From: an uncultured Ruminococcus sp.
Lineage (GTDB): Bacteria > Bacillota > Clostridia > Oscillospirales > Acutalibacteraceae
DNA: 30,999 nucleotides
Direction: 5' to 3'
Assembly: GCA_934476515.1 (NCBI GenBank)
Contig: CAKSNZ010000025.1
Location: 1-30,999 of the forward strand
Shown: piece by piece, positions 1 through 29,665 of the stretch
How positions within the stretch are numbered: the stretch's first letter is position 1
Layout of the letters: each line of letters begins with the position of its first letter
Made by a program: the position numbers and the translations under genes
Notes under the pieces: model-generated
Seen by the model: the letters and a program-made list of their open reading frames with translations, nothing else
Told to the model about the DNA's origin: nothing
Databases searched by the model: none

Positions 1-35
1 TTAGACGAAGCTAGTAACATAGCCTTTAAGGCGTT

Positions 36-22744: not shown

Positions 22745-22781
22745 TAAAATAAAAAGTGGCTATCCATAATGGGTAGCCACT
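22745..22781 (-). terminator. Terminator of the mini-NrdD gene
   Basis: AGTGGCTATCC (22755-22765) pairs with GGGTAGCCACT (22771-22781), 11 bp with one G-T pair. The minus strand continues with TTTTTATTTTAT, so it ends the minus-strand gene. It is back-to-back with the plus-strand terminator at 22711. Confidence 0.88.
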
Positions 22782-22853: not shown

Positions 22854-23144
22854 TTAAGCAATTTCCTCTGCTGAGCAACATTTTGTTAGGCTATGCTTAA
22901 CTCTATCGTTAACTTCAGCTCTTTTAGCGTCATTAAATCTGTCAACAGTACCTACTAGGTAACCTGTGATTCTTCTGATTCTTTCAAAAGGAACTTCGTC
23001 ATATGTGTAGTTAACATCAACATATTCACCGTCAACAGTAATATCAACTGTCTTGAAATATTTATCAGGATTTTTTTCCTTTAACTGCTGTACATATAGA
23101 TTAGCTTCTTTTTTACTCATATCGCCATTAATTGTTAGTGTCAT
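22854..23144 (-). CDS. Small protein resembling the C-terminal glycyl-radical segment of NrdD
   Basis: The 96-residue protein ends with RIRRITGYLVGTVDRFN (residues 56-71) followed by DAKRAEVNDRVKHSL, which matches the C-terminal pattern of anaerobic (class III) ribonucleotide reductase NrdD. In NrdD the glycine of R-x-x-G-Y carries the stable radical; here that would be G61. The catalytic barrel and the four-cysteine zinc motif of NrdD are absent. The first 50 residues are a short alpha/beta segment (MSKKEANLYVQQLKEKN, then VDITVDGEYVDVNYTYDEVPFER). The C-terminus has a CC pair. Start ATG 23144 is preceded by GGAGG at 8 bases; an upstream frame to 23192 lacks this. A NrdR-like box sits in the promoter. 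Function could be a spare radical domain, comparable in idea to GrcA/YfiD for pyruvate formate-lyase, or a regulator. That is inference. Confidence 0.6.
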   Translation of the reverse strand: MTLTINGDMSKKEANLYVQQLKEKNPDKYFKTVDITVDGEYVDVNYTYDEVPFERIRRITGYLVGTVDRFNDAKRAEVNDRVKHSLTKCCSAEEIA

Positions 23145-23194
23145 AACTCTTACCTCCATTATTTTGTTATTCTTCTTTTTTTGAGTGTACATCT

Positions 23195-23223
23195 ATATTA
23201 CCACTATATATTGTGGTTTTCAA
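23195..23223 (-). promoter_or_regulatory. Promoter of the mini-NrdD gene with NrdR-like box
   Basis: Minus-strand TTGAAA (23223-23218), 17-base spacer, TAATAT (23200-23195). The spacer is almost completely filled by CCACTATATATTGTGG (23201-23216), a palindrome that fits the NrdR-box consensus aCACwAtATaTwGTGt at 14 of 16 positions. NrdR represses ribonucleotide reductase genes. Only one box is evident; NrdR sites usually come as tandem pairs. Confidence 0.6.
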
Positions 23224-23300: not shown

Positions 23301-23334
23301 TAAAACTCTTACTACAAGGTAGTTATGTAGTAAG
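23301..23334 (-). terminator. Possible weak terminator at the end of ndoA
   Basis: CTTACTAC (23308-23315) and GTAGTAAG (23327-23334) form a perfect 8-bp stem with an 11-base loop. On the minus strand it is followed by AGTTTTAG, only four T. The stem overlaps the last codons of ndoA. Confidence 0.45.
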
Positions 23335-23682
23335 TCTGTTGTTAATACCGAATGAGATTGATAGTGCTTCATCAACTTGATTCATAGAGTTAAATTCTAC
23401 TTCTCCCATTTTTTCTCTAAGTCGCTTTTTGTCTATTGTGCGAATTTGCTCTAACAAAACTACAGAGTCCTTTGCCAGTCCACTTTTGCTACCATTTATC
23501 TCAATATGTGTTGGAAGTTTAGCCTTTTGGTGTTGGCTTGTAATTGCTGCTGCAATAACTGTCGGTGAATATTTATTGCCAACATCATTTTGTACAATAA
23601 GTACCGGTCTGACTCCTCCTTGTTCGCTGCCAACAACAGGACTTAGGTCAGCATAATATATATCTCCACGCTTAACTGTCAT
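23323..23682 (-). CDS. ndoA: mRNA interferase, MazF/NdoA (PemK) family
   Basis: The 119-residue protein is a MazF-fold endoribonuclease. [33 protein letters not shown] is the family opening, followed by [17 protein letters not shown], and [16 protein letters not shown]. The arginine of GGVRPV and the threonine of AAITSQ are the usual catalytic residues. In Bacillus, NdoA cuts mRNA at UACAU and is held in check by NdoAI, encoded just upstream. Here no antitoxin ORF can be found in the 100 bases upstream, where a lipoprotein gene ends. Start ATG follows GGGAGTG. The order nnrD, lipoprotein, ndoA resembles the Bacillus acpS-ydcC-alr-ndoAI-ndoA region with acpS, alr and the antitoxin missing. Confidence 0.92.
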
Positions 23683-29627: not shown

Positions 29628-29665
29628 GGGCTACTACTAAATATTGTGGTAGCCCGTATTTTTTT
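29628..29665 (+). terminator. Terminator after pheT
   Basis: GGGCTACTAC (29628-29637) pairs with GTGGTAGCCC (29646-29655) with one G-T pair; seven T follow after GTA. Confidence 0.92.

Follow-up and report, generated by a model that had tools for sequence, protein, structure and literature searches.

The window, a 30,999-nucleotide stretch of contig CAKSNZ010000025.1 from an uncultured Ruminococcus sp., carries on its minus strand a gene for a 96-residue protein that joins a conserved N-terminal domain to a glycyl loop of the type found in class III ribonucleotide reductase (NrdD). The gene is preceded by a promoter-like site whose spacer is filled by a NrdR-like box. In window coordinates, the features are as follows.

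22756..22780, minus strand: possible terminator, hairpin GTGGCTACCC..GGATAGCCAC followed by TTTTTATTTT, read from the sequence
22854..23144, minus strand: coding sequence of the stand-alone glycyl-radical protein, 96 aa, ATG at 23144-23142, stop at 22856-22854
22893..22988, minus strand: codons 53-84, NrdD-type glycyl loop and following helix, FERIRRITGYLVGTVDRFNDAKRAEVNDRVKH; PF13597 positions 533-562; hhalign 99.6% to the NrdD C-terminal region; 8p23 residues 707-738
22962..22964, minus strand: codon of Gly61, putative equivalent of the NrdD radical glycine, invariant in alignment A1 and aligned to 8p23
22989..23144, minus strand: codons 1-52, conserved N-terminal domain, predicted beta-alpha-beta-beta, no homologue detected
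23153..23157, minus strand: ribosome-binding site GGAGG, read from the sequence, 8 nt upstream of the ATG
23195..23200, minus strand: -10 hexamer TAATAT
23201..23216, no strand assigned: NrdR-like box CCACTATATATTGTGG, filling the -35/-10 spacer and conserved before orthologues
23218..23223, minus strand: -35 hexamer TTGAAA

The hairpin at 22756..22780 is absent from the output of the terminator scan, whose limit on loop length it exceeds; a minus-strand stem at 22727-22713 was listed instead. Just upstream of the stand-alone gene, at 23323-23682 on the minus strand, lies a MazF/PemK-like toxin ORF (named by eye), and no antitoxin was recognized by eye beside it.

In a Pfam profile search, residues 53-84 matched the last 30 positions of the NrdD profile PF13597 (533-562 of 562) with 30.8 bits against a cutoff of 26.2, and positions 1-532, which comprise the 10-stranded barrel, the finger-loop cysteine and the zinc site, were unmatched in the 96-residue protein. 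The NrdD models of NCBIfam also matched, solely at their C termini. A match to the NrdD C terminus, which the initial annotation had named as a test, was thus found, and its statement that barrel and zinc site are missing proved correct. It had further described the gene as holding only the glycyl segment and a helix; loop and helix are indeed present, but "only" has to be dropped, since residues 1-52 form a conserved domain of their own. This domain is unrelated to the NrdD C-terminal region in a profile comparison and gave no significant fold match. The nearest solved relative of the protein is the NrdD of P. copri (8p23), with whose loop glycine G61 aligns. The radical glycine of that enzyme is named Gly711 in the available text of its description (PMC11226230), and the loop glycine of 8p23 was equated with Gly711 by assuming a chain numbering offset of 4. 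From this alignment, Gly61 is taken as the equivalent of the NrdD radical glycine; the AlphaFold2 confidence for the glycyl loop of the protein was modest. Like class III NrdD (PF13597, TIGR02487), the protein has a glycyl loop, a presumptive radical glycine and a C-terminal helix, but the ATP cone, the barrel, the finger-loop cysteine and the zinc site of NrdD are all missing from it. It is a small protein with a C-terminal glycyl-radical segment and without a catalytic barrel, and it cannot be a reductase by itself.

G61 was invariant in the 42 rows of alignment A1, which were gathered with peptides that do not span this residue; alignment A3 was not used for this purpose because its rows had been chosen by a motif that includes the glycine. 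When relatives were sought by the N-terminal domain alone, the standard loop was found in 56 of 60 distinct proteins. The conservation of G61 that had been predicted is therefore confirmed, with Asp in its place in only 2 of these 60 members (G232 and G363, from one genus); two others (G459 and G309) keep the glycine in an altered loop. All four genomes with non-standard loops have an intact NrdD, and some family members therefore do something else or nothing. The non-standard-loop paralogues lie at loci L202, L262, L305 and L306, two of them with Asp for the glycine, and may be regulators or decaying copies. The second half of the earlier functional proposal, a regulator of NrdD, may apply to the Asp paralogues. 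The family is large: 7,986 of 8,000 short proteins scored matched at E ≤ 0.001, a figure that may include other short loop proteins. PF13597 was present in all 120 proteins listed among the matches, and the source names given for 3 of these 120 were anaerobic ribonucleoside-triphosphate reductase. By N-terminal-domain search, carriers make up 16 of the 120 genomes sampled from the taxonomic family, 53 of 396 from the order and 7 of 398 from the phylum.

The box CCACTATATATTGTGG differs at 2 of 16 positions from what we take to be the NrdR consensus and sits in the 17-bp spacer between TTGAAA and TAATAT, as had been noted before. Of this presumed consensus, the portions of the literature at hand confirm only the palindromic boxes, the conserved GC pairs and the spacing. 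By itself, a promoter-like site does not exceed chance (4.2 such sites are expected, and 2 were found); the operator evidence beyond chance is the conservation before orthologues. Indeed, 52 of 94 distinct orthologue upstream regions contain the box with at most 2 mismatches (shuffling would yield 0.1, and the reversed pattern yields 0) and 66 with at most 3 (1.7 and 4, respectively), and 35 of the 94 come within 2 mismatches of the strict form of the assumed consensus. In 60 upstream regions inspected by eye, the box was mostly flanked by -35-like and -10-like elements. A second NrdR box at +/-31 or 32 bp was not found in the window (8 to 11 mismatches); 21 of 67 relatives do have one at +31, which corresponds to the classical gap of 15 bp, but it is weaker (up to 5 mismatches). 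Two boxes are reported to be necessary for NrdR in the part of the relevant study available (PMC12051234); the single good box therefore counts against NrdR binding at the promoter of the window. Elsewhere in the window, CTACTAAATATTGTGG (29634-29649), two mismatches from the window's box, lies between pheT-like and IreB-like ORFs (by eye), possibly by chance.

The NrdD state of the window's organism was taken from the nearest genome examined, G001, in which 52% of the words sampled from the window recur. G001 encodes an intact 788-aa NrdD that has both the zinc site and the glycyl loop, an adjacent NrdG, and NrdR, and no match to a class I or class II RNR was found in it. Its stand-alone gene is located about 209 kb from nrdD, and its NrdD and stand-alone protein differ at one of the first 32 loop residues. 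Over 34 pairs, loop identity between NrdD and partner was 0.887 within genomes versus 0.846 between genomes, the own partner being best or tied best in 9 of 34; with relatedness uncontrolled, this similarity is weak evidence. The genome contains 213 sites within 3 mismatches of the box pattern versus 190 with a control pattern, and most of these sites are therefore noise. The best four, with 0 or 1 mismatch, lie before the stand-alone gene, before nrdD (two) and at an aldo/keto-reductase-like ORF; the perfect match before the stand-alone gene arises by construction, the pattern having been widened to fit that site. Several boxes precede nrdD itself; among them are two at a distance of 31 bp from each other and one that sits within a promoter-like spacer. 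An NrdR gene and NrdR-like boxes before nrdD, on which the initial annotation had made its proposal depend, are thus both present in G001. The site at the aldo/keto-reductase-like ORF (named by eye), one mismatch from the pattern, is at the start of that ORF (L116:1501-1516; G001 C1:106287).

Relatives of the organism, most of them probably MAGs, were surveyed for the integrity of NrdD. Among the same 120 genomes of the taxonomic family, 21 had an NrdD match that ends ahead of the glycyl loop or within it (profile end 530-547). In 20 of these 21, the truncated gene is followed by a separate short ORF with a complete loop, and 12 of those 20 have no NrdD-sized match besides the truncated protein; the remaining genome, G080, has the window's family instead. 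From the order, 138 genomes were sampled, of which 134 had a match and 34 a truncated NrdD: 28 with an adjacent ORF, 5 with the window's family, which all belong to one genus and therefore are not five independent cases, and G190, which is cut by a contig end and in which no adjacent ORF was seen. The two evenly drawn samples overlap, with 5 truncated genomes common to both, and neither contained a demonstrated orphan, that is, a truncated NrdD with no separate loop. In neither sample did the window's family occur in a genome that has a truncated NrdD with an adjacent loop ORF. The truncated nrdD with its adjacent loop ORF is a split class III RNR that is common in the order. These adjacent ORFs mostly encode 52-80 aa (loci L145-L162, L164, L276-L284 and L286-L300).

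In G080, nothing lies between nrdD and nrdG, NrdD ends in ...SERIKRLI directly before the stop codon, and PF13597 matches just one further protein, a member of the window's family encoded at another place in the genome. When 42 carriers from the order were checked with PF13597, 16 more truncated NrdDs were found, giving 17 genomes with G080, mostly drawn from carriers of the family. All 17 proteins end inside their own loop, directly ahead of the glycine, so that the first half is kept and the glycine is missing; examples of such ends are ...CPKCGRSDHGDNTRCERIPRIKV (followed by the stop), ERIPRIKV, ERIKRLI and ERVERIKL. By motif, all 17 keep the finger-loop MGC, the barrel cysteine and the zinc cysteines. 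No glycyl loop was found beside nrdD in these 17 genomes, and the partner stand-alone protein keeps its glycine in every one of them. A class I or class II RNR match was found in none of the 17 (18 genomes examined), and in 14 of the 17, there was no second NrdD-sized match, so that the truncated NrdD is the only RNR found there. Genomes that combine a glycine-less NrdD with no detected glycyl loop other than that of this family support the earlier suggestion of a spare part for NrdD, as far as gene content can indicate function. By analogy, the truncated NrdDs resemble an oxygen-cleaved enzyme written into the genome, for which the family would provide the missing remainder. A separate case is G287, where the stand-alone gene is accompanied solely by an NrdD from a different subfamily that has a glycine of its own (DRMNGYLSY); relatives of the same genus have a truncated NrdD.

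A tree of 116 NrdD cores, computed by a quick method, comprised 44 split cores with an adjacent ORF (G190 being counted among them), 37 intact cores with the family, 18 intact cores and 17 truncated cores with the family. The truncated-plus-family label changes 6 times on this tree, and at least 5 changes are forced by well-supported branches. Its rows mostly stand beside intact-plus-family rows; one truncated clade (G257, G375 and G474, one genus) has no clear intact-carrier neighbor. The placement suggests that the spare part came first and that NrdD lost its own glycine later, several times. Since the truncated rows were sampled through carriers of the family, they are biased towards this pattern, but the two even samples do not contradict it.

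Gene order and phage contigs provide further links to NrdD. At L049, an intact nrdD, the stand-alone gene and nrdG follow one another. In viral contigs, 366 relatives were confirmed by a scan, and 80 loci (L316-L395) were examined, among which misassigned bacterial contigs are possible. The standard loop with its glycine was present in 79 of the 80, the exception being L380 (one search peptide contained the glycine), and no NrdD or NrdG match was found in the examined flanks of 79 of the 80, the exception being L369. On this 62-kb phage contig (2145-4736), nrdD ends in ...TEKVRRIK, its stop overlaps the start of a 97-aa-type gene, and an nrdG ORF overlaps the end of that gene; the NrdD ORF encodes only 612 aa. 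Among 17 neighbor proteins from viral loci that were scanned (8 + 9, including the L369 NrdD), tail or integrase PHROG matches were obtained at L349, L330, L327, L383 and L323, 5 had no match, and one, at L385, is a transposase; some of the stand-alone genes have tail-fiber or integrase genes nearby. Stand-alone glycyl-loop genes were also seen on viral contigs L166 and L167. On a 176-kb viral contig (L168:4653-5141), a 162-aa ORF carries an NrdD glycyl loop near its end behind a different N terminus, and there was no NrdD match in the stretch searched.

Oxygen cleaves glycyl radical enzymes at the glycine. For pyruvate formate-lyase (PFL), YfiD is described as restoring the piece lost from the oxygen-cleaved enzyme, and PFL without residues 696-733, a stretch containing the half loop that remains on the cleaved enzyme, is not rescued by YfiD, according to the portions consulted of the same paper (PMC8683613). 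This half-loop requirement is a precedent for the truncated NrdDs, all 17 of which keep the corresponding first half. A review, in the section available, states that the same oxygen cleavage occurs in class III RNR (PMC12288474), and the NrdD glycyl domain is described, in the text available, as mobile and as disordered in the dATP-inhibited enzyme (PMC11226230); such mobility makes a loop exchange physically plausible. We consider it quite likely that the protein is a free-standing glycyl-radical subunit for NrdD, serving as a spare part in the window's organism and as an obligatory subunit in several relatives. In this scheme, NrdR would probably repress the stand-alone gene together with nrdD when dNTPs are plentiful, as the conserved operator suggests. 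The activase NrdG would put the radical on Gly61, given the near-identity of the loop to that of NrdD; the loop would then insert into the barrel of NrdD, substituting for the C-terminal loop of that enzyme, and generate the catalytic thiyl radical, and the N-terminal domain might, as a guess, dock the protein to NrdD or NrdG. In the window's organism, the protein would most likely restore NrdD after oxygen cleavage at the glycyl radical, as GrcA/YfiD does for PFL. In several related lineages, whose gene content includes an NrdD without its own glycine, the spare part would by now be an obligatory subunit.

Could the protein instead act without any catalytic radical, binding to NrdG or to the active site of NrdD and tuning the reductase, for example, as a competitive inhibitor? 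A regulator or decoy of this kind would fit a NrdR-like operator like that before nrdD, the intact NrdD of G001, and the 2 of 60 members with Asp for the glycine and 2 more with a non-standard loop. We nevertheless regard it as unlikely: the other 56 members have the standard loop, Gly is kept in 17 of 17 genomes with a truncated NrdD, and a pure inhibitor would leave 14 genomes without a working RNR. It is a little less likely still that the subunit is obligatory or preferred in the window's organism too, the loop of NrdD being redundant or disappearing and the protein supplying the radical in normal growth instead of following oxygen damage. The NrdD loop of G001, like that of its relatives, is intact and thus still looks under selection, and the gene lies far from nrdD in that genome (the 209 kb given above), even though carriers have lost the NrdD loop repeatedly, NrdR-like boxes precede both genes, and L049 has the intact nrdD-gene-nrdG operon.

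The general logic is also that of a true GrcA, as presented in the available part of PMC8683613, so the protein might serve another glycyl radical enzyme such as PFL. This is very improbable, since no PFL or GrcA family matched at E ≤ 10 in Pfam or NCBIfam, where only NrdD was hit, and since the loop is near-identical to that of NrdD, the operator is NrdR-like, and the gene stands in an operon with nrdD and nrdG at two loci. That the gene is short and has no barrel would suit a non-functional fragment from an nrdD duplication; there is hardly any chance of this, given its own conserved N-terminal domain and operator, its presence on phage contigs, and the 7,986 of 8,000 matching short proteins (with the reservation made above for other short loop proteins). 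A free-standing subunit that supplies NrdD with its glycyl radical is therefore the reading that we retain. Extended to a large group of anaerobes, many of them from gut and rumen, it would mean a separately encoded, exchangeable RNR glycyl radical: a GrcA-like part with a NrdR-like operator would have come first, and repeated loss of the NrdD glycine would have fixed the oxygen-clipped enzyme form in the genome and made the part essential to DNA synthesis. Phages have the part too, and its probable role there is to sustain the NrdD of host or phage. We hold this broader account to be probable.

The closest functional parallels are GrcA/YfiD and Y06I of phage T4, the PFL cofactors. They too are small stand-alone C-terminal glycyl-radical segments with an extra N-terminal half, are proposed to replace an oxygen-cleaved tip, and occur in bacteria and phages. 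In contrast to GrcA/YfiD, the stand-alone family belongs to NrdD rather than PFL, has a NrdR-like operator and, in some relatives, has a partner enzyme without its own glycine. Moreover, the N-terminal half of YfiD is described as disordered in the available text (PMC8683613), whereas that of the stand-alone family is predicted to be folded. RNR polypeptides made from two genes are known from class II RNR, split as NrdJa/NrdJb, in the part seen of PMC9669993, and from phage nrdD genes into which introns, inteins or endonuclease genes have brought a split, in the part seen of PMC3653736. Both resemble the present case in that one RNR polypeptide comes from two genes. However, the cut here is at or next to the glycyl loop, it is found mostly in bacterial genomes, each piece has its own start (the flanks were read for introns and inteins), and no loop lies beside nrdD in the 17 truncated genomes. 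The adjacent short loop gene of the order's nrdD operons also has the same glycyl loop apart from NrdD; unlike the window's family, it directly follows a truncated NrdD, has a short N terminus and brings the whole loop. Within the portion of the open-licence PubMed Central literature covered, no description was found of a stand-alone NrdD glycyl-radical protein or of a bacterial NrdD split at the glycyl loop. As far as the available text goes, a replaceable radical part is presented as validated for PFL only, and spare parts for other such enzymes are called possible (PMC8683613).

The family is thus a strong candidate for a spare part of the DNA-precursor enzyme of strict anaerobes and also a candidate class of phage metabolic gene. 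Natural genomes would offer, as a ready test, an RNR whose radical site lies on a chain of its own and could be swapped, labeled or mutated while the catalytic subunit is left as it is. Such a part would offer an explanation for how anaerobes regain DNA synthesis after brief oxygen exposure.
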